64,000 bases of DNA, taken from NCBI GenBank assembly GCA_003279635.1, contig QCHK01000002.1, positions 1 to 64,000 of the forward strand, written 5' to 3'. Of this stretch, positions 8,101 through 64,000 are shown one piece after another. The notes beneath the pieces are model-generated. The model made no database searches. It saw only the letters and a program-made list of their open reading frames with translations, and was not told where the DNA came from. Within the stretch, counting starts at the first letter, position 1; every line of letters starts with the position of its first letter. The position numbers and the translations under genes were made by a program. The DNA is from Prochlorococcus sp. AG-402-B05 (GTDB taxonomy: Bacteria; Cyanobacteriota; Cyanobacteriia; PCC-6307; Cyanobiaceae).

Positions 8101-11100
8101 GTTACTGATAATTCAGGTGATTTTGTTGAGTTAGATATCATTCTTTTTCTGCAAAGAACTAATAAATCATTGTCAGTTGAGTTAGTTGAAGAACAGTTAA
8201 TAAGGGAAGAGGGAAGTAGTTTTAATTTAAGTGAATTTATTAATATAGAGAAACCCGACATAGATGGACAAATAATATTTCTATCAATAGAACAAAAAAT
8301 TGAGGATAATGAGATTTTTAACCTACTAAGTTCTAATTTTTCTCCAATAGTAACTCAAATTGCAGATAAAAAGAAATGGGAAATATCCGGATCATATGAA
8401 GATATATTAGCTTTTTTAACTGATTCTAATTTGTCAAATCAAGGTAACTCTTTTTATATTGGAGAAACTATTTTTACAGTAAATTTAAGGACTGAATTAG
8501 GCCTAACAGGTTTATCATCTGAAACTGTATCTAAGGATTTTTCTTTTATATCAACCCCTATCCCCAGTGTTCCAGTTTGGGATGCTGAATCTAATTTTGT
8601 AGCTAATAATGACCCACTCTTATTTACACCAATTGGTTCTTTGCTAAAGGCACAAAGTTCTGACCCAAGAGAGTATTTAACATACAATATTAAATTACCA
8701 AATGATAGAGTTGATCTTTTACTAACAGATAATAATGGAGATTCTATAGGTCAAAGGCAAGGCGACTATTATGTGTTATCTGAATCCGAATGGGAATCTG
8801 TTTTACTTAGAAGTGTCGATGGAAACATAAATGAAGCTGAAATTGAGATTTATTCAACTTCTTATGAACCAGGTACTCCGTTATTCCAATCTTCAATCAC
8901 AAGATCTTTGATTATTAAGGCTTCACCCTTTATTAATGGAGAGCCTGATATTGGAACGATTGCTCCTTTTGTTGCACAAAGGGCTGGTGAGCCTATGGAA
9001 ATTAATGTAAATATAATTTCTCCTCAATATACAAGAAATACCATTCTTGAGATTGAATTGCCTTTAGGAACCGAGTTGGACATTAAGAATAGAGATGATG
9101 CACAATTATTTTTAATTTCTGAGGAAAATGGTTTTTCAAAATATAGAACTAATTTTAAAAATAATGATACTAATTACATTGATAATTTTGTCTTTGTTAT
9201 GTCTAGTGAGGAGGAATTTAAAGGAGAATTTGTTACTAAAATTACAGCATATAATACTTTTTTAGAAGATTATGATTCTTTTACCTCTATCAGTAAAATT
9301 GATGGGGATATAAAAAATAATTTTACTTCTGCATCTGATCAAGTCGAGGAAAGTTGGGAGGTAGTGCAGGTTGCCAAGCAACCTGAGTTTCCAGAAAATG
9401 ATAACCTGAATTTATTAAACTTTGAAAATAATTCCGGTTTACTTCATCTACCTTTTAGAAGGGGAGAGAATAATAATGGTAACAGGAATCCTTCAGAAGC
9501 TTTAACATTTTCAATTTCTAATATCCCTTCTGGGTATGCCTTAGCCACCTTGCAGGATGGAATATATAAAACAGTTGGAGCTACAGATAAATTTGGAACC
9601 ATAACACTTTTCTCTTTGCCTTCTTTATCTGAAGATACTGAAATTGCTAGCATTGATAATTTTATTCCATTATTAGATGGAAATTTGTTTTTACTGCCTC
9701 TTAGTGAATCAGTACCTTCCCTTTCTAGTTTTAATCAATTATTTTTATCTCTAGGGGCCTCTATTTCTGGTCAACCTGGTGGTGATTCTCGTTCTTTAAT
9801 TGCCACAACAACTCTTCAATTAGATGGCTCTTTAGAGAAATTACCTTTAGTGGGAAGTTTTAATACAGTTGTTGACCCTTTAATTATAGATTTTAATAGA
9901 GATGGAAAAATCGAATTGTCATCTGTATCAAATTCAAATAATAGCTTTGAATTTGAAATGATACCTGGTTCAGGCCCACTGTATACTTCGTGGCTTTCTG
10001 AGAATTCAAATTCAAATGGTAATTTAGATTCTGCATTTGTTATTTTAAATGATGATTCTAATGATTCAAATAATGGTGACATTGTAATTGAATCAATTAC
10101 TGAAATATTTTCAGAATATTTTCAATCAGAGAATGGATCTAGAACTTTTAATTCAGGTATTTCAGCTTTTAAAAGTTTAGATTCAAATAATGATGGAAAT
10201 TTAAATAGTAGTGATACCTATTGGAATGAAATATCTTTATGGTTTGATAATGGAGACGGTATAGTATCTAATGATGAAATAAGAAATTTCTCTGATTATG
10301 TTTCAAATGTAGATTTTAATAATGTCGAAACTATTGCTAATCAACCTGAATGGTCTAACAATAATTCTATTTTGAGAAAACTCACAATAGAAGGTGTTGG
10401 AGAAGAAGATTTTTATGATATTTACGATATTGGTTTGAATGTTTTAACTTCTACAGGTGATACTATACAACTTGATTTAAAAGATAGTAATGATAAAAAT
10501 ATAATTGAGATTGATGAAAATGGAGATTTTGGAATATTAAATTTAGAATCGCAAAATAGTGACACTTGGCTAGAAAATGGATTAGATTCACTTACTCTTG
10601 TTAGATTAATTGGCTTACCTGATCAAATAAAACCTTCTATAGGTGTTAAAGATTCACGGAATGATTGGTTATTTACATGGGCAGATTACCATCAGAATGG
10701 AGATAAGATTGAATTAATTACTGATGCTTTTTGGAGTGGAGATGTAAATATTAGTGCGATGCTAAGTCAATTACAACCTGATGGAAGTTTAAATAGTTCT
10801 TCTATTAAATCAATAGCTGTTAATGTTAAGCCTATAGCTAATAAACCATATATTGTTACTAGTGATATTTCATTGAAAGAAGATGAAATGGTAGTTCTTT
10901 CTGATTTGATATCAGATATATATTTATTGGATAGAGATGGATCTGAGGAATTATCTGTTGAGATATCATCTTTACCAAATGGTTTTCAAATATTAAAAGA
11001 AGAAAATAATTTGAAGAGACCGATTTTACCTATAGATGATATTTATTCATTTAATTTAGATGAATTAAATAAATTATTTATAACTCCTACTAAAGATATT

Positions 11101-24375: not shown

Positions 24376-24534
24376 AATCTTATGATTTTAAAATCGTTAG
24401 AATCCGATAGTTATTTTATTTAACTTACTATTGAGTTACTTGCTTTTTATAAAGACTTTAAGCTCAGCCAGTAAAAATAGTTATTTTTACTGGTCGAATA
24501 TATTGAATAAATAATCAATGAAGGGGGATCAGTT

Positions 24535-25212
24535 TTGCATTTGTTAATTGCGGCGGCAGGAAGTGGAAGTCGAATGGGTGCTGATAGAAATAAACTCCTT
24601 TTGAAGGTTGCAGGTAAGACGGTTTTAGAATGGACTCTAAAAGCAGCTTTCGAGGCTAAAACAATTTCTTGGATTGGAATTATTGGACAACCCAAAGATA
24701 AAAATCCCATTTGTTCAATTCTTGATAACTCAGTAAAGGCAGTTCAATGGATCAATGGAGGATCAACAAGACAGCAGTCAGTTCAACTGGGATTAGCTGC
24801 CCTTCCAAATGATGCAAAGTCTGTGCTGATTCATGATGGAGCAAGATGCTTGGTGAGATCATTCGTTTTTGATGAGATCTCAAAGATTGTTTCCAAGGGA
24901 CAATCTGTTATTGCTGCTTCACAAGTCACTGACACCATAAAAAAGGTTGATATAGATGGTGAGATTATTGAGAGCCCTCCTCGCTCAGATTTATGGGCTG
25001 CGCAGACACCTCAGGGTTTTCCAGTAAATAAACTGAAGCATGCTCATAGTGAAGCAATCTCCAAAGGATGGAATGTAACCGATGATGCATCCTTGTTTGA
25101 ACGTTTAGGATTGCCAGTGAAAATATATGATGCAGGACCTTCAAATATTAAAGTGACAACTCCATTTGATCTCGTAATAGCAGAGTCTTTATTGTCTACT
25201 TTAAAAGACTAA
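24535..25212 (+). CDS. ispD: 2-C-methyl-D-erythritol 4-phosphate cytidylyltransferase
   Basis: A 225-residue enzyme of the MEP isoprenoid pathway that makes CDP-methylerythritol from MEP and CTP, supplying precursors for carotenoids, phytol and quinones. The N-terminal [18 protein letters not shown] is the CTP-binding loop; DGARCLV and the C-terminal VTDDASLFE are family motifs. Translation appears to start at TTG (24535), preceded by AAGGGGG about ten bases upstream; the ATG at 24518 is out of frame. The last 17 bp overlap the 3' end of the convergent LD-carboxypeptidase gene. Confidence 0.95.
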
Positions 25213-32564: not shown

Positions 32565-32948
32565 ATGCCAAGACTGGCTTTTGACATGAGTTTTAAATCT
32601 AATGAATTGAATACTGGTAGCTTTTCTTCTCCAATTCCCTTGGAAGTAGACGAAGTAGTGGGTTGCTTAAGAAGGCGATGGGGTGTCACATATGATTTGA
32701 AATTGTTAATCAAAAAAGACAAAATATATTTACAAATGATGTGGGGATTTTTAGAACAACAATCTTTTCCATTGGACGAGGAGACCTTTAGAGAGAATTT
32801 AAATCGAACCCTAGAAATTATTAATCGGGCAGGTCAATCAGGTTTCGTAAGAAATTGGTTGAAAAATGTACAGGCAAAGCCAAGACTTGGAAGAGCAATA
32901 ACTTTACCTTTGCCTATGGATCAAAGGATGGACGAATTTGTCCTTTGA
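32565..32948 (+). CDS. DUF3067 family protein
   Basis: Up to 127 residues. A second ATG at 32586 (MSFKSNELNT) is a plausible start; the first is used here only as the longest frame. The conserved core runs PLEVDEVVGCLRRRWGVTYDLKLL, broken here at its Leu pair, then YLQMMWGFLEQQSFPLDE and TLEIINRAGQSGFVRNWL, which is the DUF3067 pattern found in cyanobacteria and plastids. The function is unknown; its place beside petC, petA and tatC is shared with relatives and hints at thylakoid biogenesis. The last 35 bp overlap the 3' end of tatC on the other strand. Confidence 0.8.
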   Translation: MPRLAFDMSFKSNELNTGSFSSPIPLEVDEVVGCLRRRWGVTYDLKLLIKKDKIYLQMMWGFLEQQSFPLDEETFRENLNRTLEIINRAGQSGFVRNWLKNVQAKPRLGRAITLPLPMDQRMDEFVL

Positions 32949-33633
32949 GATTTGTTGTTAAGGCCACTAACCCAATTCCAACAAAAAACAAAAAAGTTAT
33001 CGATGTTGAGAGAAGAAGCATGGTTATGGGATCAGTCGATGGAGTTAAAACAGCTCCTGCAACTGCTGAAGCCATTACTACTAATCTCCAAGCTGATAAC
33101 ATCTTTTTCCAAGAAATTATTTCTAGGAACCCCAAAATCAATTGAAGAATTGGTAACTGGAAGGCTAAACCTGTTGAGAGCATTAGCAGAAGTACGAAAT
33201 CTAAATATTTTTCTATTGACCAAAGTGGTTCAACCACATCAGCACCATAACTTACAAGAAATCCCAAAGCTGCGGGTATTAAAGCCTTCCAAGCAAAGAA
33301 AATTCCTAAGAAAAATAAAATTGCTGAACCTGCAACTGATGGTGCTATTAAAAGCTTTTCTTTTTTTGTTAGACCAGGAAGGATGAACTTTAAAAATTGG
33401 AAAAGTATGAAAGGAAGAGAGAGAGTAAGCCCTCCATAACCTGCAACTTTTATTGAAGTAAATAAAAATTCACCGGGTGCTACTTGTAAAAATTGTATTT
33501 TCCCCGCTGGCATCTCTAATGCTTGTACAAGCTTCCTGACAAATAACAAGCAAAAACCTGATGAAAGAAGAACTGCAATAAGACTTTTTAGGATCCTTTG
33601 ACGAAGTTCTTCAAGATGATCAACCAAAGGCAT
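32914..33633 (-). CDS. tatC: Twin-arginine translocase subunit TatC
   Basis: A 239-residue polytopic protein that recognises twin-arginine signals and forms the Tat translocon core; the nearby Rieske protein is a typical Tat client. The N-terminal MPLVDHLEELRQRILKSL and the sequence around FLFVRKLVQALEMP fit TatC, and about six membrane helices follow. The start is uncertain. The frame stays open for 35 more codons upstream, reading like a hydrophilic N-terminus (SPNKNENISKAPPPIRIKGK), yet contains no ATG, GTG or TTG, only CTG and ATT candidates. The annotated ATG lies inside a strong hairpin (33628-33653) and lacks a Shine-Dalgarno sequence. Confidence 0.92.
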   Translation of the reverse strand: MPLVDHLEELRQRILKSLIAVLLSSGFCLLFVRKLVQALEMPAGKIQFLQVAPGEFLFTSIKVAGYGGLTLSLPFILFQFLKFILPGLTKKEKLLIAPSVAGSAILFFLGIFFAWKALIPAALGFLVSYGADVVEPLWSIEKYLDFVLLLMLSTGLAFQLPILQLILGFLEIISWKKMLSAWRLVVMASAVAGAVLTPSTDPITMLLLSTSITFLFFVGIGLVALTTNLKGQIRPSFDP

Positions 33634-33653
33634 CTCAAGGGTTTGAGATGCCT
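33628..33653 (-). promoter_or_regulatory. Strong hairpin covering the tatC start codon
   Basis: AGGCATCTCAA (33628-33638) and TTGAGATGCCT (33643-33653) form a perfect 11-bp stem with a 4-base loop. The annotated tatC ATG (33633-33631, minus strand) is buried in the 3' arm of the hairpin in the mRNA. It has no following T-run, so it is not a standard terminator. It could block initiation at this ATG, act as a processing site, or lie within coding sequence if translation starts upstream. Confidence 0.6.
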
Positions 33654-33864
33654 CATATGAATTAGCTTTTCCCTTGATCCTTATAGGAGGAGGAGCTTTT
33701 GAAATATTTTCGTTTTTGTTGGGGCTATTCAGGTTAATTTAGCTTAATAGACTTATTTTAGTAGTAAATTGAGTTTGTAAGTAGTAAATAAGAAATTTTG
33801 CTAGATATTTTATGAGTGATAAATAGATAAATTATTAATAATTCCTCTTTCGGGATAAAGTTTT

Positions 33865-34161
33865 TTACTTGTTTTTTGTTGGGTCAGGCAAAATAAAAGG
33901 AGGACAATCATTTAGTGAAGATTCACCATAACTAGCATATTCTTTGTAACCACCCATTTTTCCGTTGGTTTTCATTAAAGCGCTTGTAAAAGCTAATAAA
34001 AGAAAGACTGTTGGAGCACCAATTATTAAAGCAGCACCAAATAAATATCCAATTAAAAACTCTGGAAAAGTGTGATTACCAAGAAACTCATGCGTGCCTA
34101 GCAAAAAGTCAATCATTTTAAACTGGTCTAATGAAGCTGATAGTAAGTCATTGAAGTTCAC
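33865..34161 (-). CDS. Small single-pass membrane protein of unknown function
   Basis: A 98-residue protein with one clear membrane helix (LIGYLFGAALIIGAPTVFLLL, split at about 36-56) followed by a conserved-looking polar tail with KTNGKMGGYKEYASYG and a proline-rich end. An internal ATG (Met16, MIDFLLGTHEFLGN) may be the true start. The size and style resemble small thylakoid proteins, but I could not match it to a named photosystem or b6f subunit. The first codon overlaps the stop of the NFACT gene by 4 bp, suggesting a shared transcript. Confidence 0.65.
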   Translation of the reverse strand: MNFNDLLSASLDQFKMIDFLLGTHEFLGNHTFPEFLIGYLFGAALIIGAPTVFLLLAFTSALMKTNGKMGGYKEYASYGESSLNDCPPFILPDPTKNK

Positions 34162-35929: not shown

Positions 35930-36490
35930 ATGCCGTCTTTAGGAAATCTTACTGTTCTTACTGGCCCTAGCGGGGTGGGTAAAGGAACAATTGTTAGGAA
36001 AATCCTCGAAAGTCATAGTGATGTATGGCTTTCTATTTCTGCTACTACTCGTCAGCCAAGATCTGGAGAAATTGAGGGAGAGCATTATTTCTTCTTAGAG
36101 AAAAAAAAATTTCAAGAAATAATTGATAAAGATGGTTTCCTTGAGTGGGCTTCATTCTCTAATAATTTTTATGGAACTCCAAAAAAAATAGTTAAAGAAA
36201 AGATTGAAAAGGGAACAAATGTTCTTCTAGAAATTGAACTAGAGGGTGCTCGACAAATTCGAAAGTCTTTTCCGGAGGCATTTCAAATATTTTTAGCACC
36301 ACCTAATTTATATGAACTTGAAAAAAGAATTAGAGGAAGAGGAACTGAAACAGAAGAATCTATTAGAGATCGTTTGTCCATAGCTGAAAAAGAACTTATT
36401 GCTCAAAAAGAGTTTGACGCTGTAGTTATTAATGAAGATATAGAAAAAGCCTTCAAGGAAATTGAAGGCTTTATGGGATTAAAACTTTAA
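35930..36490 (+). CDS. gmk: Guanylate kinase
   Basis: A 186-residue enzyme that phosphorylates GMP to GDP with ATP. The P-loop GPSGVGKGTI is at about 12-21, the SATTRQPRSGEIEGEHYFF GMP-binding region at about 37-55, and the RIRGRGTETEE lid region at about 126-136. Length is typical. It stands alone, with psaJ ending 21 bp beyond its stop on the other strand. In Prochlorococcus-like genomes gmk commonly neighbours psaJ-psaF, as here. Confidence 0.96.
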   Translation: MPSLGNLTVLTGPSGVGKGTIVRKILESHSDVWLSISATTRQPRSGEIEGEHYFFLEKKKFQEIIDKDGFLEWASFSNNFYGTPKKIVKEKIEKGTNVLLEIELEGARQIRKSFPEAFQIFLAPPNLYELEKRIRGRGTETEESIRDRLSIAEKELIAQKEFDAVVINEDIEKAFKEIEGFMGLKL

Positions 36491-39345: not shown

Positions 39346-40590
39346 ATGACTCCTGAGCGACTGGGTTTGCTCTGGGGCATCACAGTTTTTTCTGGGGCTG
39401 GAGCAAGATTACTATCAGTGCTAACAGGACTTCCTGGGGTGGTTTTATTGTTGCTATCTGGCTTGTTGATTGGGAGATCAGGTCTTGGATTGGTTGAACC
39501 TTTAGATCTAGGTAAGGGGTTGGAGACAATAGTTGGTTTGTTGGTAAGCCTTGTTTTGTTTGATGGTGGTTTGAATCTTCGATTTCCTGGAGGGGCAATC
39601 AAGTCAATAGTTCTAAGAATTTCCTCGATTAGATTAATTATTTCATTGGCAGCTGGCTTCTTTGCTGCACATTGGTTCGCAGGACTTGGTTGGTCAGTCG
39701 CAGGAGTTTATAGCGCGATTGTTCTTGCTACTGGGCCAACGGTTGTAACTCCTTTAGTTCGACAAATTCGACTTGCATCGCCATTGAGTGATGTTCTTGA
39801 AGCTGAAGGTTTGATTCTCGAACCTATTGGAGCAGTGCTTGCGCTTTTGTTGTTAGAGCTTGTTGTTGGAGATTTACATGGCTGGAGAGAGCTTTTTCTT
39901 GGTTTGCTTTCAAGGCTTGGAGGAGGAGTTTTAATTGGGTCACTCGCAGGTCTTTTCCTTTCAGAGGGTTTGAAGCGCTTACGTTCTGAGCCTTATATCG
40001 GGATCAGATTGCAACTTACCCTTGGAGTGGTTTTTCTTCTTTATGGCGTATGTGAATGGTTGTTACCTGAATCAGGATTGCCGGCATCTGTTGCGGCAGG
40101 GTTTGTTGTAGGACAAAGACCTTCGACACAGGCGAATGAACTTGATAAATTAATAAGAGAATTAGCTCAGTTAGCAATAACTATGCTTTTTCCTCTATTA
40201 GCAGCCGACGTTTCATGGGGTGAATTGAGTCCTTTGGGCTGGGGGGGGATAACTTGTGTACTTTTTTTGATGATCATAGTGAGACCAATAGCTGTATCGA
40301 TAGCAACTTATGGATTGCCTCTTGATAATAAACAAAGATTATTTCTTGGTTGGTTAGCTCCCCGTGGAATAGTCACTGCAGCAGTTGCCTCTTTATTCTC
40401 AATTAGATTGGAGCAGGCAGGCGTTTTAGGAGCTGGAAAACTTCAGGGATTAGTTTTCTTGACAATATTAATGACAGTAGGTATTCAAGGCTTAACAGCT
40501 CAACCATTGGCAAAAATTTTGGGTCTATTGGATGAAGATAAAGATTTAGATAAGCCGACTAATTCGGGCTCTATCTTTACTGAATCTTGA
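39346..40590 (+). CDS. Cation/proton antiporter (CPA1/NhaP-type)
   Basis: A 414-residue polytopic protein with about 12 hydrophobic segments. The motif [12 protein letters not shown] (about 65-76), [15 protein letters not shown] (about 124-138) and the [13 protein letters not shown] and [15 protein letters not shown] segments mark a monovalent cation:proton antiporter that exports sodium in exchange for protons at the cytoplasmic membrane, useful in sea water. Cation specificity is not readable from sequence. The last 45 bp overlap the 3' end of gltX on the opposite strand, the longest convergent overlap in the window. Confidence 0.88.
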
Positions 40591-41976
40591 TAGTAAAATC
40601 CAACTTTGAATTAAATCAGGACCATTGAGAGTTCCAAAAAGCGCAGCTCTAAGACTTTTCATAACAAGACCTTTTTTTACTTCGCATCTTTTCGTAGCTT
40701 GATTAATTAAATCAAGAGCTTTCTCTTTAGAAAAGGATGCAGCATCTCTGTCCCCCAACTTTTCAAGAATAAACTTTAAAATTACAGTTGCTTCTTTGAT
40801 TTCCAATTGCTTTTTGCCATCATCACTTAATTCTGGCTCTTCAAAAAAAGGTTTAGCTTGGTCTACTCCATCATTAATAAGAACCATGGATGGCCCTATT
40901 AACCCTACGAGATTGATTCCCCATTCATGACTTGGAATATGCCATTCTTTTTCTTTAAATAAAGGATCTAAATTTTCTAGTAGAGTTTCTGCTGACATCT
41001 CATGGATTACTTGAGAGTTGAGCCAGTTCAATTTGTCCCAATCAAATTTGGCTGAAGCTTTATTTACCTTTTTAAAACTGAAAATCTTTGAGATTTCTGA
41101 TATTTTGAATCTTTCATTAATCCCCTCTGGAACTGACCAGCCAAGAAGAGTCATATAATTTGCCATCGCTTCAGATGTGTAACCCATTTTCTTGAATTCA
41201 GAAATTGAAGTAACTCCATCCCTCTTGGACAGTTTTTTACCTTCAGAATTAAGAATCAAAGGAGTATGAGCGAAAACGGGAATATTAAGATCTAGAGCCT
41301 CGTAAAGAAGAATTTGCTTTGCAGTATTTGAAAGATGATCTTCTCCCCTTATTACATGAGAAATTTGCATTGCTGAATCATCTGCAACAACTACTAAATT
41401 GTATAAGGGATCTCCAATTGACTCTGCTGGTGCTCTTCTTGCAATGACCATATCACCGCCTAAATCTTTTCCACTCCAAGTCATTTTTCCTCGAATTAAG
41501 TCATTCCATGAAATTAATTTTTGATCACTGATTTTGAATCTGATAACAGGTTCTCTTCCCGCTGTTATAAATTCTGCTTCTTGTTCTGAAGTTAAATTTC
41601 TGTGCCTATTGTCGTATTTTGGAGCTAAACCATTTTTCTTTTGGGTTTCTCTCATTTCATCGAGTTCAGCTTCTGATGCGTAACATTTATATGCAAATCC
41701 TTTATCAATAAGAGTTTTTATAATTTGTTTATGTTCATTTACTCTTTCACTTTGAATTGTTGGGGATTCATCCCAGTTGATTCCTAGCCACTGGAGCCCA
41801 TCATATATGTTTTTTATATATTCTTCTTTCGATCTTTCAAGATCAGTATCTTCAATTCTTAGGAGAAAAGTACCACCTTCTTTTTTCGCAAAAAGCCAGT
41901 TAAATAGTGCAGTCCTCGCTGTCCCTAGATGGAGTGTTCCTGTTGGACTTGGTGCCAATCTTACCCTAACTTTCAA
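40546..41976 (-). CDS. gltX: Glutamyl-tRNA synthetase
   Basis: A 476-residue class I synthetase charging tRNA-Glu, which also feeds the five-carbon tetrapyrrole pathway in cyanobacteria. The HIGH-type motif is [14 protein letters not shown] (about 9-22) and the KMSKS-type motif is KLSKRDG (about 245-251). Between them sits the [19 protein letters not shown]-type tRNA acceptor region. The anticodon-binding C-terminal part ends in [14 protein letters not shown]. The gene is followed upstream, on the same strand, by tRNA-Asp 21 bp away. Its 3' end overlaps the antiporter gene by 45 bp. Confidence 0.97.
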
Positions 41977-41997
41977 AGCTCTATTTCAATTTAGATA

Positions 41998-50241: not shown

Positions 50242-50275
50242 AAAAATGAATTTTTTAGTAGAAAAATTCATTTTT
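50242..50275 (-). terminator. AT-rich hairpin at the xth stop codon, probable terminator
   Basis: AAAAATGAATTTTT (50242-50255) and AAAAATTCATTTTT (50262-50275) form a perfect 14-bp inverted repeat with a 6-base loop. The xth stop codon lies at its edge. The hairpin is followed on the minus strand by a T-rich stretch. Only two stem pairs are G-C, so termination strength is uncertain. Confidence 0.5.
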
Positions 50276-51082
50276 AATATCTGATGGAGGCCAGTTGATA
50301 TCTACAACCACAGGTGCGTGATCACTAGGTTTCTCTTTAGATCTTTGTTCTTTATCGATCCAACAACTATTGGCACAACTAAGAATATCCTCTGTTAGGT
50401 AAATATGATCGATCCTCCAACCCTTGTCTCTTTCCCAGGCTGAATGGCGATAATCCCACCAAGACCAATTTTTCTCTCCGGGCTCAAAAATCCTAAAAAC
50501 ATCTTCTAATTCCTCTCCTAAAGCATCTTTGAGTAATTTCCTCTCTTTGGAAGAAGCCATAATTGACTCTTTATATTTACTTGGTGTATGAATATCTCTA
50601 TCTTCAGGGGCAATATTAAAGTCTCCTAGTAAACATATTGGCGTGTCATTTTCATTGATTTCCCTTAAATAAACCTTTAGACATTCTAGCCATTTTTCTT
50701 TATAAATAAACTTATCTGAATTTAAAGATGATCCATTTGGAACATAAACATTTATTATTCTAATATCATTGATATCAGCACTTATAATTCTTTTCTGCTC
50801 ACTTAATATAGATAAATCTTGATAGTCTTTGATTACTTCATTAAACCCAATCTTTATATTATTAATTGGGAATCGACTTATTACTGCTACTCCATTGTAA
50901 GACTTTTGGCCAGAGATTGAAACCTCATATCCAAGGTTTGAAAAAATTTCAATTGGAAAAAACTTATCTTCTGTTTTTGTTTCTTGTAAGCAAAGAATGT
51001 CAATCTTGTTAGTGATGAGCCATTCTTTTACATGATCTATTCTTGAACGAATAGAATTCACATTCCAGGTTGCAACAAGCAA
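50255..51082 (-). CDS. xth: Exodeoxyribonuclease III (AP endonuclease)
   Basis: A 275-residue enzyme of base-excision repair that cleaves at abasic sites and removes 3' blocks. The Mg-binding and catalytic residues appear in order: TWNVNSIRSR (N), LCLQETKTED (E), GDFNIAP (D/N), the WSWWDYRHSAWERDKGWRID loop with DH, and SDHAPVVVDI near the end. Length is normal for this family. It stands alone, and its 3' end is covered by an AT-rich hairpin. Confidence 0.96.
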   Translation of the reverse strand: MLVATWNVNSIRSRIDHVKEWLITNKIDILCLQETKTEDKFFPIEIFSNLGYEVSISGQKSYNGVAVISRFPINNIKIGFNEVIKDYQDLSILSEQKRIISADINDIRIINVYVPNGSSLNSDKFIYKEKWLECLKVYLREINENDTPICLLGDFNIAPEDRDIHTPSKYKESIMASSKERKLLKDALGEELEDVFRIFEPGEKNWSWWDYRHSAWERDKGWRIDHIYLTEDILSCANSCWIDKEQRSKEKPSDHAPVVVDINWPPSDIKNEFFY

Positions 51083-51140
51083 GACTTTAAAATTTTATTT
51101 CTTAAGTTATTATCATGTAGATTCAGACGAAAATTTAGTT

Positions 51141-51476
51141 TTGAAGCAAACTGCACGTTTTATTAATGCTCAATTATTGTTTGCTTTATTTTGTTTGGCT
51201 CCAATTTTAATTACGGTAGGTCAAGTTTTTGCTCCCCCAAGAACAGTAAGAATTTCGGAACTAAAAAATTATTCAACTGATGAGAAAAGAGATATTTACA
51301 GCACTTTTGATACAGAAGATCAAATTGATCAAGGTTTACCAATAGATCCATTTGATTTGATGAACCGTCTTAAGCAAGTAGGAGCTATGAATAATGCTAC
51401 AACCCCATCAGATGCACTCGATGCAGCTCTCAATGCATTTGATCAGTCAGACGATGAAAATGTCCCAAATAAATAA
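51141..51476 (+). CDS. Small exported protein of unknown function
   Basis: A 111-residue protein with an N-terminal hydrophobic signal or anchor segment (LLFALFCLAPILITVGQVFA, about 13-32), followed by APPRTVRISELKNYSTDEKR and an acidic tail. The start is a TTG; no better in-frame start was seen. I do not recognise the family. It follows the divergent xth gene by 58 bp and precedes a 215-residue unknown gene by 69 bp in the same direction. Confidence 0.6.
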   Translation: MKQTARFINAQLLFALFCLAPILITVGQVFAPPRTVRISELKNYSTDEKRDIYSTFDTEDQIDQGLPIDPFDLMNRLKQVGAMNNATTPSDALDAALNAFDQSDDENVPNK

Positions 51477-54466: not shown

Positions 54467-56053
54467 TTAGTTATTTCTGTTATTTAAGCTTGGTATTAGG
54501 GCTAAAGAGGCTATTAATCCCAGGCAAATTATTATCATTGAAGGTAAGATAGATTCTGCTACTCTTTCATCTCCTGCATATTGGAATATTCGTACTGAAA
54601 GCGTATCAAAATCAAAGGGTCTTAATATAAAAGTTAGTGGTAATTCCTTTATTGTGTCAACAAAAACAAGAAGAATACCCACCAACATAGGCCCTTTGAG
54701 AAGTGGCAGATGTATTTTTAAAAGGATCTCTGACCAGTTCTTTCCGAGATTTATGGCTGCATTATCTATATTTGGTGAAATCCTCTCAAGGCCGGCATCA
54801 AGGCCCCCTTTTGAAACAGCTAAGAATCGAATGCTATACCCCCAGATTAGTAAGCTTAAGATGTTGATTTGCCAGATGTTTCCTTTAAAGGAAAGTAGAG
54901 CAAGGGCTAAAACAGATCCAGGAATTGCATAGCCAATACTTGATAAGAAGGTCAATATATTGAGCCATTGATGATTATTCCATCTCTTAGAAATTGCTAA
55001 AAACAATGATATAAATATCGTTATTAATGAAACAACTAAGGCTAAGCTAAAGCTTCTAATAGTTAATCCAATTAAATCTGTATTGAAGCCTTTATTTATT
55101 TGATCAATATTTATTATTGCCCATGTAATTGGAATACCCAATGTAAGCATTGGAGGAGTAAAGGTTATAACTTGGGCAAGGAATAGATTTATACCTTTTA
55201 ATTTCCATTTTTGTGAATCTCGACTAATTGTTTCGTCTGTCCATCGTTTACTTTTTTCTCTTGATTTGCGTTCAATTGCAACTAATAGAAAAACTAAAAT
55301 CAGGGCAAATATGGCAAGAGCAATTGCACTTGAGGGCTCACCTTCCTCTACCCAACTCTCAAGTATTCCCGCTGAAATACTTGGAATATTTAAAAGTTGA
55401 ACGGCACCTAACTCATTTATGATTTCCATCGCCATTAAAGCTAACCCCGCAGTAATTGAGGGAATTGCCATTGGCATAGATATTCTAAAAAAACTTTTCC
55501 AAGGACCTATCCCAAGAGTTCTGCATGCTTCAATTTGTTTTCTTCCGCCATTCTCAAAACTTTCTGTACTTAGTAGAAATACATATGGGTAGGTTGTGAA
55601 TGCCATTATTAGTACACCCCAAAACATACCGGTAATTCTGATTGAATTAATACTGCCGAGGTCAATGAACGTAGCTGCTAAAAGATAAGCTGGAGTGGCA
55701 AAAGGAATTAGTTGGCAAACCCTAAGTATTTTTTTTCCTTTGAAATGGCAATTGGCTAAAATCCAACCATTTGCAATACCTAAAAATCCTCCTAGAGTTA
55801 GAGAAAAAATCAATAGTAAAAGTGTTCCTTTTATTTCATTAAGATTGGCTGTAGTTAAATAAATAGAACCTTTTTGAATACCATATAAACCCTCTTTTAC
55901 GAGTGTAAATAACGGCCATAAAATAAAAAATGTTATTAGAATTACTAAGTACTTTAATATGTAGCGACTATTGTTTAATCCAATTAGCTTATAAACAAAT
56001 TTAATATTGTTTTCTTTGTTGACGGCCTTTGAATTGGATTTGATGTTGTTCAA
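54467..56053 (-). CDS. futB: Iron(III) ABC transporter permease (FutB/FbpB type)
   Basis: A 528-residue permease with two fused binding-protein-dependent transport domains and about twelve membrane segments. The EAA-type loops are EACRTLGIGPWKSFFRISMP (about 176-195) and AAINLGKNWSEILLKIHLP (about 430-448), which contact the ATPase. Length and order fit FutB/FbpB, importing ferric iron delivered by a periplasmic FutA protein. Neither FutA nor the ATPase is encoded in the window. It is the last gene of a leftward run yjbQ-phhB-cobW-futB (gaps of 1, 7 and 15 bp). Confidence 0.87.
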   Translation of the reverse strand: MNNIKSNSKAVNKENNIKFVYKLIGLNNSRYILKYLVILITFFILWPLFTLVKEGLYGIQKGSIYLTTANLNEIKGTLLLLIFSLTLGGFLGIANGWILANCHFKGKKILRVCQLIPFATPAYLLAATFIDLGSINSIRITGMFWGVLIMAFTTYPYVFLLSTESFENGGRKQIEACRTLGIGPWKSFFRISMPMAIPSITAGLALMAMEIINELGAVQLLNIPSISAGILESWVEEGEPSSAIALAIFALILVFLLVAIERKSREKSKRWTDETISRDSQKWKLKGINLFLAQVITFTPPMLTLGIPITWAIINIDQINKGFNTDLIGLTIRSFSLALVVSLITIFISLFLAISKRWNNHQWLNILTFLSSIGYAIPGSVLALALLSFKGNIWQINILSLLIWGYSIRFLAVSKGGLDAGLERISPNIDNAAINLGKNWSEILLKIHLPLLKGPMLVGILLVFVDTIKELPLTFILRPFDFDTLSVRIFQYAGDERVAESILPSMIIICLGLIASLALIPSLNNRNN

Positions 56054-56068
56054 TTTGTTCTTTAGTGA

Positions 56069-57103
56069 TTATTTGTCAATACATGCATTTAATTGAGAGA
56101 GTATTTCTTCTTTATCTAATTCTTTTCCAATAAAGACGAGCTGATTATTTCTTTCCTCTCCCCATTCACTATCTTCAATAGAAATTCTTTTTCCAGCAAG
56201 GTGAAAGACATGTCTCCTTTCGCTTTCGCTGAACCAAAGAATACCCTTTGCTCTGAAAACATTACTTTTTAATTGATTGTCTAGAAAATATTGGAATTTT
56301 CTAAGAGAGAAAGGTTCTTTAGTTTGAAAAGACACAGAAAGAAAATCTTCAATTTTATTATCTTCCTCTAAGTGTTCATGTTTATGAGAGTGTTCATGTT
56401 TATGAGAGTGTTCATGAACCGATTCTTTTTGATTAATTAGATCAGTTTCAAATAGACCCACACTTAATAATAGATTCAGAGGAATATTTCCTTTAATGCT
56501 TTTTAAGATTCTCACATCATTTTTTATTTCTTTTAACTTCTCTATGGTTTCTTCTATATTTTTATTAGTTACTAAATCACATTTGTTTAGAAGTAAAATA
56601 TCACCATAGATTACCTGTGATCTTCCTATTGAACTTTCTAAAGCAACATCATTAAAGTTCTCAGCATCAATTAGAGTTATAATTGAGTCTAATCTTGTTT
56701 GATCTCTTAACTCACTTCCAAGTAATGTCATCGCAACTGGAAGAGGATCGGCTAATCCTGTAGTTTCAATGATAATGTAGTCTAACTTCTTGTTGACATT
56801 AATTAACTTTTCTATTGCTTCTACTAACTCACCATTTATAGAGCAACAAATACATCCATTACTTAGTTCTACCATTTCTTCATCAGTCTTAATTATTAAC
56901 TCATTATCAATTCCTATTTCACCAAACTCGTTAACTAATACAGCTGTCTTTATACCTTCCTGATTAGTAAGTATATGATTTAATAAAGTTGTTTTACCTG
57001 AGCCTAAAAACCCTGATATAATTGTAATAGGTATATTTGTTTTGGAAACTATATTTTTTTTAAGATTAGATTCGCTAGTGTTCATTTTAATTGTAGTAAA
57101 CAA
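56069..57103 (-). CDS. CobW/COG0523 GTP-dependent metallochaperone with His-rich loop
   Basis: A 344-residue P-loop GTPase: Walker A GFLGSGKTTLLNH (about 33-45), the metal-binding CxCC motif in NGCICCSINGEL (about 83-94), and NKCD (about 173-176). A histidine loop, HEHSHKHEHSHKHEH (about 230-244), links to the CobW C-terminal domain (FQTKEPFSLRKFQYFLDNQL). The family hands over metals such as Zn or Co; which one is used here cannot be read, but its place between phhB and an iron permease gene suggests metal-limited conditions. The loop is encoded by an 18-bp tandem repeat. Confidence 0.9.
   Translation of the reverse strand: MFTTIKMNTSESNLKKNIVSKTNIPITIISGFLGSGKTTLLNHILTNQEGIKTAVLVNEFGEIGIDNELIIKTDEEMVELSNGCICCSINGELVEAIEKLINVNKKLDYIIIETTGLADPLPVAMTLLGSELRDQTRLDSIITLIDAENFNDVALESSIGRSQVIYGDILLLNKCDLVTNKNIEETIEKLKEIKNDVRILKSIKGNIPLNLLLSVGLFETDLINQKESVHEHSHKHEHSHKHEHLEEDNKIEDFLSVSFQTKEPFSLRKFQYFLDNQLKSNVFRAKGILWFSESERRHVFHLAGKRISIEDSEWGEERNNQLVFIGKELDKEEILSQLNACIDK
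56373..56416 (-). repeat. 18-bp tandem repeat encoding the His-rich loop of the CobW protein
   Basis: TGTTCATGTTTATGAGAG is repeated exactly at 56373-56390 and 56391-56408, followed by the first eight bases of a third copy (56409-56416). On the coding strand it yields HSHKHE units. In-frame copy-number change would lengthen or shorten the metal-binding loop without breaking the gene. Confidence 0.9.
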
Positions 57104-57110
57104 TAATAAA

Positions 57111-57416
57111 TTAGTTCTTTATTAATTTATCAATAGACTCAGCAAGCTTTATATCATTGCTAGTGATTCCACCTTTGTCATGAGTTGTTAAATTGATTTT
57201 AACTTTATTATATGTATTCTGCCAATCTGGATGATGATCGATTTTCTCAGATAAAAGAGCGACCTTACTCATAAAGCCAAAAGCCTCAATGAAATTATCA
57301 AATTTAAATTCTTTCTTTATCATTTTATTGTCTATTATCCAAGACGGATTCTTTTCTATAAAAGAATCTAGTTGCTTTTTCTCTATTAAGGAAACCATGG
57401 GTTTTTCATACTTCAC
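57111..57416 (-). CDS. phhB: Pterin-4a-carbinolamine dehydratase
   Basis: A 101-residue protein. The family signature appears as [20 protein letters not shown] (about 56-75), with the catalytic HHP histidines, followed by [20 protein letters not shown]. It dehydrates pterin-4a-carbinolamine and is often linked to folate or pterin metabolism; in this setting a neighbour of a CobW protein is a known zinc-stress association in other bacteria. It is 1 bp from yjbQ and 7 bp from the CobW gene. Confidence 0.92.
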
Positions 57417-57417
57417 T

Positions 57418-57879
57418 TTAATTTAAATCAAAATCACCAATTGCATGTAATTGTAATGACCTTGATTTATTTGATGCTCTATGTTCCCATATATAGATGG
57501 CTTGCCATAAGCCTATTTCTAATTTACCATTAACAACACTAAAGCTTAAATTATTAGAAGTAAGCATTGTTCTTATATGAGCAGGCATATCGTCTAAACC
57601 TTCTTCTGAATGAAGATATTCTATTTTTTTACGACTTCTGTCAATGGGATAAACTCCCTCCTCTGGCACAATAGCATTCATGTAAGCTGATAGGTCTTTA
57701 AGAACATTAATATCCGCATTTTCATTTATAATTAAACTACAGCTTGTATGCTTTAGAAAAATAAGAAGTATTCCTTTTTTAAGCTTTTTATATTTGATCC
57801 AATTATTAATGTTTTTTGTTATGTCAATAAAACCTTGTCCCTTCGTCTTAAAATCTATAGTTGATAAAACCTGTTCCAT
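57418..57879 (-). CDS. yjbQ: YjbQ family protein (UPF0047)
   Basis: A 153-residue protein of the YjbQ/UPF0047 family. [20 protein letters not shown] with its conserved Thr-Ser-Cys and [20 protein letters not shown] followed by [16 protein letters not shown], with the C-terminal WEHR, match the family well. A weak thiamine-phosphate synthase activity has been reported for relatives, but its real role is uncertain. It appears to be the first gene of the leftward yjbQ-phhB-cobW-futB run; an inverted repeat lies 17 bp upstream. Confidence 0.9.
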
Positions 57880-57895
57880 TTCTAATAAACTGTCT

Positions 57896-57924
57896 AACCT
57901 GACTGTATTAAATACTAACAGGTT
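57896..57924 (-). promoter_or_regulatory. Inverted repeat upstream of the yjbQ-phhB-cobW-futB run
   Basis: AACCTG (57896-57901) and CAGGTT (57919-57924) form the outer arms of an interrupted palindrome whose centre, GTAT-TAA-ATAC, is a second, inner palindrome. It lies 17 bp before the yjbQ start and overlaps a TAATAC-like -10 on the minus strand. It could be an operator for a metal regulator, but it does not match the cyanobacterial Zur-box pattern I know. Confidence 0.4.
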
Positions 57925-58109
57925 TGTTCCTTTCTTATTAAGTTAAGTATTTTGAATCTGATCTTGAAAAAAAGATATAAGCTGTTTGATTCTTAAATCA
58001 TGAATAATTTAATTAAGAACTTAGGATTTAAATTATTTAAAATTGGTCAAATATTGATCTCTTTTCATCCATTTGATATTAACATTACACAAATATCAAA
58101 TGGAATACT

Positions 58110-59639
58110 TTGTCAAAGTCTGCTTGGCAACTTTTGGGTGGTTACCTAAAAGATACGCAGTTGTTGGGATCTATACAAAGCACTCTCTACTGGGATCAAA
58201 ATACATCTATGCCTATTGCTGGTTCCACTTGGAGAGGAGAGCAATTAAGTCTTTTAGCTAAGCAACTTCATGCAAGACAAAGTTCTGAACAGTTCGAAAT
58301 TTTAATAAAAGAAGCTAAATCTGAACTTCAAAATTTAAAAGAAAAAGACGATTTTGAATCACAACTTATGACAGATAGGTTTAGAAATATTGAGTTGCTT
58401 GAGCAAGATTTCAATAGACAGAAAAGTTTGGATCCTAAATTGGTTGTTGAGCTTGCAACATCAAAGTCTGAAGGTTATATGTGTTGGCAGGAAGCTAGGA
58501 AGAATAATGATTTCAAAAGTTTTTCTCCTGCGCTTAAGAAATTAATTTCATTACGAACAGAACAATCTAATCAGCTCGGTGAAGATAGAAGTTGCTGGGA
58601 GACACTTGCCCAACCTTTTGAACCCAACTTAACGATTAATCGTGTAAGCGAACTATTTGAACCTTTAAAAAAAAGATTGCCAGAATTGATTCATAAGGCT
58701 GAGACAATAACCAACAAAAAGAGGAAAAAATGGGATTTAGCAATTAGCGATCAAGAAAAACTCTGTCAAATACTTTTAAATGATTGGTCTAGGGATCCTT
58801 CTAACACCGCTATAGCTAAGTCCCCTCATCCCTTCTCTATAACTTTAGGTCCCGATGATTATCGAATTACGACTCGAATAGTTAAAGGTCAGCCACTTTC
58901 CTGCTTATTGGCTACTGCCCATGAGTGGGGACATTCTCTTTACGAACAAGGCCTGCCTTCTGAAAGTCACCAATGGTTTGCATGGCCGCTAGGTCAAGCT
59001 ACCTCTATGGCTGTACATGAGAGCCAATCTCTGTTTTGGGAAAATAGAATTGCTAGGAGCTTTTCATTTGCAAAGTCTTTTTGGCATCATTTTGAGAATG
59101 CAGGTGCTCCAATTCACTCTGGAGATGATTTATGGATCAATCTAAATCCATTTACTCCAGGATTGAATCGAGTAGAGGCCGATGAACTCAGTTATGGCTT
59201 GCACATAATGATTAGGACTGACTTGGAAATTGATCTTCTAGAGAGAGGGCTTTCGGTAGACGATCTACCTAATGAATGGAATAAAAGGTATTTGAACCTT
59301 CTAGGTGTTTCTCCAGAAAATGATATTGAAGGATGTTTGCAAGATGTGCACTGGAGCGAAGGGATGTTTGGTTATTTTCCTTCTTATTTGCTTGGTCATC
59401 TTATTAGCGCTCAGTTAACAAAAACTCTTGAAGAAGATTTAGGAAAAATTGAAAATATTATTGAATCTAAGGAAATCAGTAAAATATTGGGTTGGCTTCG
59501 CAAAAATGTTCATCATTATGGGAGAAGTTTAGATTCCGAGGAACTTGTCAAGGAGGTCTCTGGGGCAACATTATCACCAAATTATTTTCTTGATTACTTA
59601 GATAATAAACTTGAAAAGCTTTCTAAAATCGCTTATTAA
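58110..59639 (+). CDS. Carboxypeptidase M32 (Taq type)
   Basis: A 509-residue zinc metallopeptidase removing C-terminal amino acids from peptides in the cytoplasm. The zinc motif HEWGH is in LLATAHEWGHSLYEQG (about 270-285), a variant of the family's HExxH; the third ligand Glu is in AVHESQSLFWENRIARS (about 307-323). TPGLNRVEADELSYGLHIMI and the C-terminal GYFPSYLLGHLISAQL are also family features. Translation probably begins at TTG 58110, matching the conserved first helix. Length is typical. Confidence 0.93.
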   Translation: MSKSAWQLLGGYLKDTQLLGSIQSTLYWDQNTSMPIAGSTWRGEQLSLLAKQLHARQSSEQFEILIKEAKSELQNLKEKDDFESQLMTDRFRNIELLEQDFNRQKSLDPKLVVELATSKSEGYMCWQEARKNNDFKSFSPALKKLISLRTEQSNQLGEDRSCWETLAQPFEPNLTINRVSELFEPLKKRLPELIHKAETITNKKRKKWDLAISDQEKLCQILLNDWSRDPSNTAIAKSPHPFSITLGPDDYRITTRIVKGQPLSCLLATAHEWGHSLYEQGLPSESHQWFAWPLGQATSMAVHESQSLFWENRIARSFSFAKSFWHHFENAGAPIHSGDDLWINLNPFTPGLNRVEADELSYGLHIMIRTDLEIDLLERGLSVDDLPNEWNKRYLNLLGVSPENDIEGCLQDVHWSEGMFGYFPSYLLGHLISAQLTKTLEEDLGKIENIIESKEISKILGWLRKNVHHYGRSLDSEELVKEVSGATLSPNYFLDYLDNKLEKLSKIAY

Positions 59640-63105: not shown

Positions 63106-64000
63106 ATGGTAGAAAAAATTTCTAAAGTCGGCAAGTATTTAAAAAATATGAATCCTTTTATATTTGATATTTGGTTACATGTAGGTCGTGAGGGGCGATG
63201 TTTTTCATATCAAGATGGAAATAATTTAGATATTGATTTAGGCGATGTTGTGACAGTGCGTCTGAAAGGGCAACGCATGCAAGGGTTGGTCGTTAAGAAG
63301 ATGAAAAAAAATATAAATAGTACACACCAAAATTTAAATAATTTTTTGCTTAATAATGTAGAAACATTGGTTCAAAAAGCAGCTATCAAAAAAGAATGGA
63401 GAGAGTGGCTAGAAGAAATTGCGCTTGATTTATATGTAAGTGATTTTCAGATGCTTAAGACCGCGTTACCTCCTGGTTGGTTAGGAAGGTCGAAACTATC
63501 GAATAGACCTAAAAAACTCTGGTGGGTAAAATTGTCTAACAATAATCATGAGGGAAAGATATCTTCTCGACAGATTGAGTTAAAGAAAAATCTTCTCTTA
63601 AATGGAGGGGGAAAATGGCAAAAGGATTTGGAGTCTGAAGGATTTTCTTCTGTATTGATTAGAAACTTTGTCTCAGTTGGTTGCGGAGAAAGAGAAAAAC
63701 GTCTTTTTCTTTTCAATTCTTTTGATAATGAAGAATCTAAGGATGAAAATATTTTAAAGATTGAGGAACCTCAACCTTTAACGCTAGAGCAAAAATTAGC
63801 AAAAGAAAAATATGAGTCTCTTGCAAATGGATCAGCTCTTTTGCTTTGGGGTGTTACTGGGTCTGGTAAGACGGAGGTATACCTACAAATTGCAGCGCTT
63901 GAGTTGTCTGAAAGTAGACATTGTCTTATCCTTACACCCGAAATTGGGTTGGTACCACAATTAGTTGACCGCTTTCGAAAAAGATTTGGGTTAAACGTTT
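63106..64000 (+). CDS. priA: Primosomal replication protein N' (PriA helicase), 3'-partial
   Basis: The frame runs off the right edge, giving about 298 residues. The N-terminal DNA-binding domain reads IWLHVGREGRCFSYQDG and VVTVRLKGQRMQGLVVKK. The helicase begins with Walker A LWGVTGSGKTEVYLQIAALE and motif Ia LTPEIGLVPQLVDRFRKRFG, both PriA-type. PriA restarts collapsed replication forks. ATG 63106 is used; a later ATG at 63148 would also keep all conserved sequence. A stop codon at 63070-63072 limits any earlier start. It diverges from rpoD. Confidence 0.93.
   Translation, partial: MVEKISKVGKYLKNMNPFIFDIWLHVGREGRCFSYQDGNNLDIDLGDVVTVRLKGQRMQGLVVKKMKKNINSTHQNLNNFLLNNVETLVQKAAIKKEWREWLEEIALDLYVSDFQMLKTALPPGWLGRSKLSNRPKKLWWVKLSNNNHEGKISSRQIELKKNLLLNGGGKWQKDLESEGFSSVLIRNFVSVGCGEREKRLFLFNSFDNEESKDENILKIEEPQPLTLEQKLAKEKYESLANGSALLLWGVTGSGKTEVYLQIAALELSESRHCLILTPEIGLVPQLVDRFRKRFGLNV

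Follow-up and report, generated by a model that had tools for sequence, protein, structure and literature searches.

Two questions are raised by the tatC locus of Prochlorococcus sp. AG-402-B05: at which codon does translation begin, and does a hairpin lying over the first ATG of the gene control access to that codon? In the window (the whole stretch of DNA that was analysed, 64,000 nucleotides), the tatC frame delimited by the ATG/GTG/TTG rule encodes 239 amino acids, and its ATG (33633-33631, minus strand) sits inside one arm of the hairpin. The arms, AGGCATCTCAA (33628-33638) and TTGAGATGCCT (33643-33653), pair perfectly. Between the TAA at 33741-33739 and this ATG, the frame comprises 35 open codons (33738-33634), with no ATG, GTG or TTG among them. 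The first-pass annotation had described both the 11-bp hairpin over the ATG and the ATG-less open frame, and these descriptions and the coordinates of the arms and of the ATG were verified; it had proposed either a non-standard start with the hairpin inside the gene, or a hairpin regulating access to the ATG. The features needed to choose between these readings are the following:

33633-32914, minus strand: tatC open reading frame by the ATG/GTG/TTG rule, 239 amino acids, ATG start
32914..33732, minus strand: inferred tatC coding sequence from CTG to stop, 272 residues, matching TIGR00945 and PF00902
33730..33732, minus strand: CTG codon, inferred tatC start, shared by all 35 same-genus sequences and by 38 of 106 from other genera
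33634..33729, minus strand: N-terminal extension (codons 2-33), lost with the ATG start, with a conserved PPPI motif and a coding substitution pattern
33631..33633, minus strand: internal ATG, Met34 of the long form, the start under the ATG/GTG/TTG rule
33628..33653, minus strand: perfect 11-bp hairpin with a 4-base loop, within the inferred tatC coding sequence
33739..33741, minus strand: in-frame TAA stop, separated from the CTG by two codons
33755..33763, minus strand: conserved TACTAAAAT block, 22 nt upstream of the CTG, possible -10 promoter element, from an alignment of 33 of 35 sequences

To place the start, the 5' region of tatC was compared among relatives. Of 41 same-genus genomes, 35 yielded the gene, own included; among named genomes the scan covered the best 80 of 147 tatC loci, and 62 same-genus loci gave 35 distinct 5' regions, own included. 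From the CTG on, the 32 codons contain no in-frame stop in any of the 35 sequences, while the other two frames are interrupted in 33 and in all 35 of them. Within codons 2-32 of the extension, the 33 equal-length sequences differ 3531, 3275 and 5586 times at the first, second and third codon positions, and synonymous single differences are more numerous in frame (2637) than in the shifted frames (1127 and 1209). The PPPI motif and the internal Met34 codon are both invariant in the per-codon profile (33 of the 35 sequences, L024 and L027 being left out), and some relatives do carry an ATG, GTG or TTG inside the extension. By this substitution pattern, the upstream extension is under protein-coding constraint. 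The 272-residue product is recognized as TatC by NCBIfam TIGR00945 with 218.1 bits (cut-off 132.7) and by Pfam PF00902 with 193.3 bits (cut-off 25.1), the latter over residues 38-242 of the long form.

Near the 5' end of the upstream frame lie two near-cognate codons, ATT (33738-33736) and CTG (33732-33730). They had been given as the only possible starts, which is slightly incomplete since the frame also contains a second ATT nine codons after the CTG, as well as ATA and ATC codons. The CTG is present in all 35 distinct same-genus 5' regions. As a leucine codon it is rare, accounting for 39 of the 1646 Leu codons (2.4%) of same-genus TatC bodies, and a single codon (TTA) is used by all 34 compared sequences in only one of the 29 columns where Leu is invariant. 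The ATT, at codon -2, is replaced by ATC, ACT, AAT, AGG and others among 33 sequences, and was rejected as the tatC start for this lack of conservation. A stop stands at codon -3 in 29 of the 33 profiled sequences; two codons separate the in-frame stop from the CTG in 31 of 35, and 3, 4, 5 and 8 codons do so in the other four. The frame is thus coding from the fixed CTG on and unconserved ahead of it, where the ATT varies and a stop is present in all 35 sequences, and tatC most likely starts at the CTG. We estimate at about 0.86 the probability that translation begins at 33732-33730, with fMet carried by the ordinary initiator tRNA, to give a 272-residue TatC that has the hairpin inside its gene. 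The alignment of N-termini and upstream DNA proposed in the first-pass annotation thus gives good support, from sequence, to its suggestion of a non-standard start.

The extension could also be translated from elsewhere, i.e. from the ATT or ATC found two codons before the CTG in 21 of 33 sequences, or by a frameshift from an upstream open reading frame. We consider this highly improbable: codon -2 is unconserved, every one of the 35 sequences has an in-frame stop upstream of the CTG with 2-8 codons in between, and in 23 of 35 no ATG is present in any frame within 60 nt upstream.

Several observations on the DNA around the CTG bear on how it could be used as a start. The base at +4 is a purine (A or G) in each of the 73 CTG sequences (35 of the genus and 38 from outside). 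Counting against the CTG start, Shine-Dalgarno-like 4-mers occur upstream in only 1 of the 35 genus sequences and 5 of the 38 others. Consensus RNA folding of 33 sequences gave no consensus pair around the CTG. The TACTAAAAT block is largely conserved in the upstream alignment (33 of 35 sequences, L015 and L028 being left out), and no sigma-70-type promoter came out of a consensus scan of 33550-33950. As a separate observation, codon 3 of the CTG-started gene (33726-33724) is AGC in 33 of 35 sequences, although it serves for only 4 of 600 Ser residues in the same-genus tatC genes, so that the DNA beside the CTG start seems to be constrained at the nucleotide level, beyond the amino acids.

As a control, five syntenic relatives were compared with the window over 44 of its frames, all lying in 18390-63770. 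Where the sequences agree, no frame has a longer conserved in-frame run ahead of a canonical codon than tatC, with 33-35 codons in six of six sequences, and an invariant CTG precedes its ATG by 33 codons; the next longest runs are those of 57418-57942 (21 codons) and 51036-51476 (19 codons in five sequences and 17 in one). A loose criterion flagged 17 frames besides tatC. Seven of them (24511-25212, 40546-41985, 51036-51476, 54467-56068, 56069-57118, 57418-57942 and 58083-59639) were viewed singly and, judged by eye, none has a coding extension comparable to that of tatC. In most of these seven, all or nearly all sequences have a canonical codon in the same column, and the upstream match at 40546-41985 looks like a neighbouring tRNA gene. 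Invariant near-cognate codons are found in other control frames, an ATA 8 codons (24511-25212) and an ATT 2 codons (56069-57118) before the canonical column, so that a codon unchanged in six genomes is not by itself a specific sign. Larger gaps than that of tatC exist in some sequences: 197 codons for 58083-59639 in a single one of the six sequences, its frame being cut. For 63546-63770 the gaps are 1, none, none, 59 and 59 in five sequences. It can also be observed that the 21 in-frame codons before the ATG at 57879 (57880-57942, minus strand) are similar in the six genomes and hold no canonical start.

The same sequences allow the role of the hairpin to be considered. If the ATG at 33633 were the sole start, it would be sequestered by a regulatory hairpin, and the stem itself is in agreement with such a role: a 61-nt RNA around it folds to -20.7 kcal/mol with a z of -3.2, a stability equalled by 1 of 200 shuffles. 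It had been presented as the strongest small hairpin of the window; it is real, perfect and stable, and it is not the longest, which is that at 50242-50275 with 14 bp. The window contains 5 perfect stems of at least 11 bp (loops 3-8) against a mean of 0.53 and a maximum of 4 in 30 dinucleotide shuffles, indicating that perfect hairpins are enriched across the whole window and that the tatC hairpin is part of this general excess. The other perfect hairpins, at 50242-50275, 24468-24493, 36446-36472 and 9928-9956, have stems of 11-14 bp and loops of 4-7.

The search for compensatory changes in the stem, which the first-pass annotation had suggested as a check, gave a mixed answer. The stem is perfect in 8 of the 35 distinct same-genus sequences, own included, and the remainder have 2-10 Watson-Crick pairs. 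The hairpin alignment comprised 34 of the 35 genus sequences (L028 was left out), i.e. 31 distinct aligned rows, in which standard pairs occupy 86.2% of the pair cells, a percentage reached by 1 of 500 shuffles. The covariation score (0.080) exceeds those of all slides of the partner (at most 0.052) and of all 500 shuffles, an excess that relatedness alone can cause; for this reason, a structure drawn from one of the aligned sequences exceeds its slides. Three cells show changes on both sides of their pair; with the partner slid, the count is 5 at -2, 4 at -1 and 0-1 at the other four slides. We consider covariation as weak evidence for a stem in tatC. Together with the coding and conserved frame that runs upstream as far as the conserved CTG, these data make a sole start at a sequestered ATG very hard to believe; regulation of access to the ATG finds little support, and the hairpin was set aside as an unlikely regulator on account of the few perfect stems and the weak and mixed covariation. 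That annotation would have been contradicted by relatives in which both the upstream frame and the hairpin are unconserved; the frame is conserved and the perfect hairpin is not. The hairpin is probably the by-product of two coding stretches (EASQ and LEMP) that happen to be complementary in this group.

A further alternative, which overlaps with the CTG start, is a dual initiation in which the CTG would give the long TatC at a low rate and the ATG in the hairpin a short one, the ribosomes coming from the CTG opening the hairpin and setting the ratio. The strength of the hairpin in the window sequence and the invariance of the internal Met codon are in agreement with this, as is the beginning of the TatC domain matches at residues 36-38 of the long form, since a protein started at Met34 would retain them. 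The same Met is also present in relatives that have an ATG start upstream, and can thus be kept for protein reasons; Shine-Dalgarno-like 4-mers lie 4-17 nt before the internal ATG in 2 of 33 sequences (26 of 33 when the 25 nt before it are considered), and the perfect hairpin is not kept among relatives. Dual initiation is regarded as unlikely.

The next point is how widely the CTG is shared. Outside the genus, a CTG occupies the same aligned column in 38 of 106 distinct sequences, and at least one CTG sequence was found in 25 of the 55 other genera examined (33 of 84 genomes); with the genus of the window, CTG stands at the aligned tatC start in 26 of 56 genera. The CTG is also seen in tatC of Synechococcus WH7803 (L049). 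For most genera this census drew on one or a few genomes, best matches first, and L201, which has no 5' end, is uncounted. Genera g40 and g53 are mixed, and g40 is ambiguous as a CTG genus because an ATG follows 15 codons after the CTG. CTG makes up at most 10% of the Leu codons of their own TatC in 22 of the 38 sequences. In six of the 38 (L029, L079, L148, L150, L153 and L160) an ATG, GTG or TTG is also present 3-4 codons upstream, and only 7 of the 38 have no canonical codon at all before the core.

Counting against a general CTG start, the remaining 68 of the 106 sequences do not have the CTG. Many relatives have an ATG, GTG or TTG at its position or within two columns: ATG in the column in 17, GTG two columns on in 13, TTG two columns on in one (L157), TTG in the column in two (L057, L064) and GTG in the column in two (L116, L192). 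We take the 17 sequences with ATG in the column to be freshwater and Cyanobium-like types. Short N-termini with an ATG start are found in 7 of 7 genomes examined of genus g18 and in 4 of 5 of g11. A few tatC genes have neither a clear canonical nor a CTG start: L121 (ATT or an upstream GTG), L159 and L041 (CTA in the start column) and L039 (nothing obvious).

On a quick tree of 92 rows, which include 10 of the 35 genus sequences and of which 44 of the 88 inner branches are left open, the CTG label clusters, needing 13 changes by the group table against 28.7 in shuffles. A two-state count of CTG versus not gives 9 changes, seven "unclear" rows being excluded; two rows with a short N-terminus (L197 and L198) were labelled as ATG rather than as short ATG, which leaves this comparison unaffected. 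As the branches of the tree are weakly supported, CTG may have arisen once or several times. Taken together, tatC of this Prochlorococcus appears to begin at a CTG that is fixed in its genus and shared by many relatives.

This spread is unexpected in view of the rarity and weakness of CUG as a start. In an excerpt of PMC11497404, CUG accounts for 0.024% of bacterial start codons and initiates in E. coli at 0.86% of the AUG output, and in an excerpt of PMC5622118, covering 36 genome triplets, 2 of 61,358 ancestral AUG starts had turned to CUG. A relaxed initiator tRNA was considered and rejected: among the 30 of 35 tRNA matches that have loci, which were those examined, the initiator tRNA retains the usual three G-C pairs in its anticodon stem, so that no relaxed discrimination is seen. 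This tRNA is presumed to be the initiator from its stem and unpaired first position. It would read the CTG as fMet through a weak first-position pair; 33 codons, CTG included, would precede the internal Met in the 272-residue TatC, the translating ribosomes would open the hairpin inside the gene, and the weak CTG would keep TatC synthesis low. Since the initiator tRNA is normal, Shine-Dalgarno-like 4-mers are nearly absent and CUG gives 0.86% of AUG output, low initiation is expected, and we infer that it may suit TatC.

A tentative proposal, which we would not bet on, goes further: marine picocyanobacteria would keep a nearly inactive CUG on tatC as a dosage clamp, the output being set by rare initiation and following the levels or fidelity of initiation factors, while lineages with a short N-terminus, such as g18, use ATG. 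If true, many genera would have CUG as the only start of a translocase gene, a counterpart to the AUU of infC outside the translation machinery.

The comparison with infC, which encodes IF3 and starts at AUU, rests on a housekeeping gene having a non-canonical start codon. In all 35 genus sequences the coding frame of tatC reaches further upstream than the first ATG, GTG or TTG, and a near-cognate codon, the CTG, is conserved where the coding constraint begins, as expected of an infC-like class. According to work by Butler and by Brombach, both of 1987, the weak start codon of infC reportedly limits its expression. In contrast to infC, the codon is CUG rather than AUU, some tatC lineages have other start codons, and since tatC encodes no initiation factor, no autoregulatory loop of the infC type is evident.

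Other cases of near-cognate initiation resemble that of tatC in part. Unannotated extended or truncated N-termini arise from near-cognate starts in Salmonella, 4 of 26 from CUG, as stated in an excerpt of PMC11005335; the tatC N-terminus would likewise be extended through a near-cognate codon. The Salmonella proteoforms of that excerpt were found experimentally, beside the annotated form, whereas the tatC CTG, a start predicted from sequence, appears to be the sole start of the long protein and crosses genera. Chloroplast genes also have conserved non-AUG starts, for which a link to translational regulation is proposed; the natural cases named in the excerpt of PMC9845219 are UUG and GUG, whereas tatC has CUG, and a lack of GUS expression in the same excerpt is taken to concern CUG constructs. 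Among the matches listed from the open-licence PMC literature, no title is recognisable as dealing with a CTG start of tatC or with a conserved cyanobacterial CTG start, and none appears to report initiation at this codon by N-terminal peptide, toeprint or profiling. A bacterial survey reportedly devoted to non-AUG starts (arXiv:2008.10758) could include the case.

These ocean phototrophs are very abundant, and in their tatC nature provides a setting in which the active maintenance of a poor start codon can be examined. For annotation, a gene finder restricted to ATG, GTG and TTG would drop the N-terminus that carries the PPPI motif. At the other end of the gene, tatC shares its last 35 bases (32914-32948) with the 3' end of a DUF3067 gene that runs convergently on the plus strand (32565-32948).
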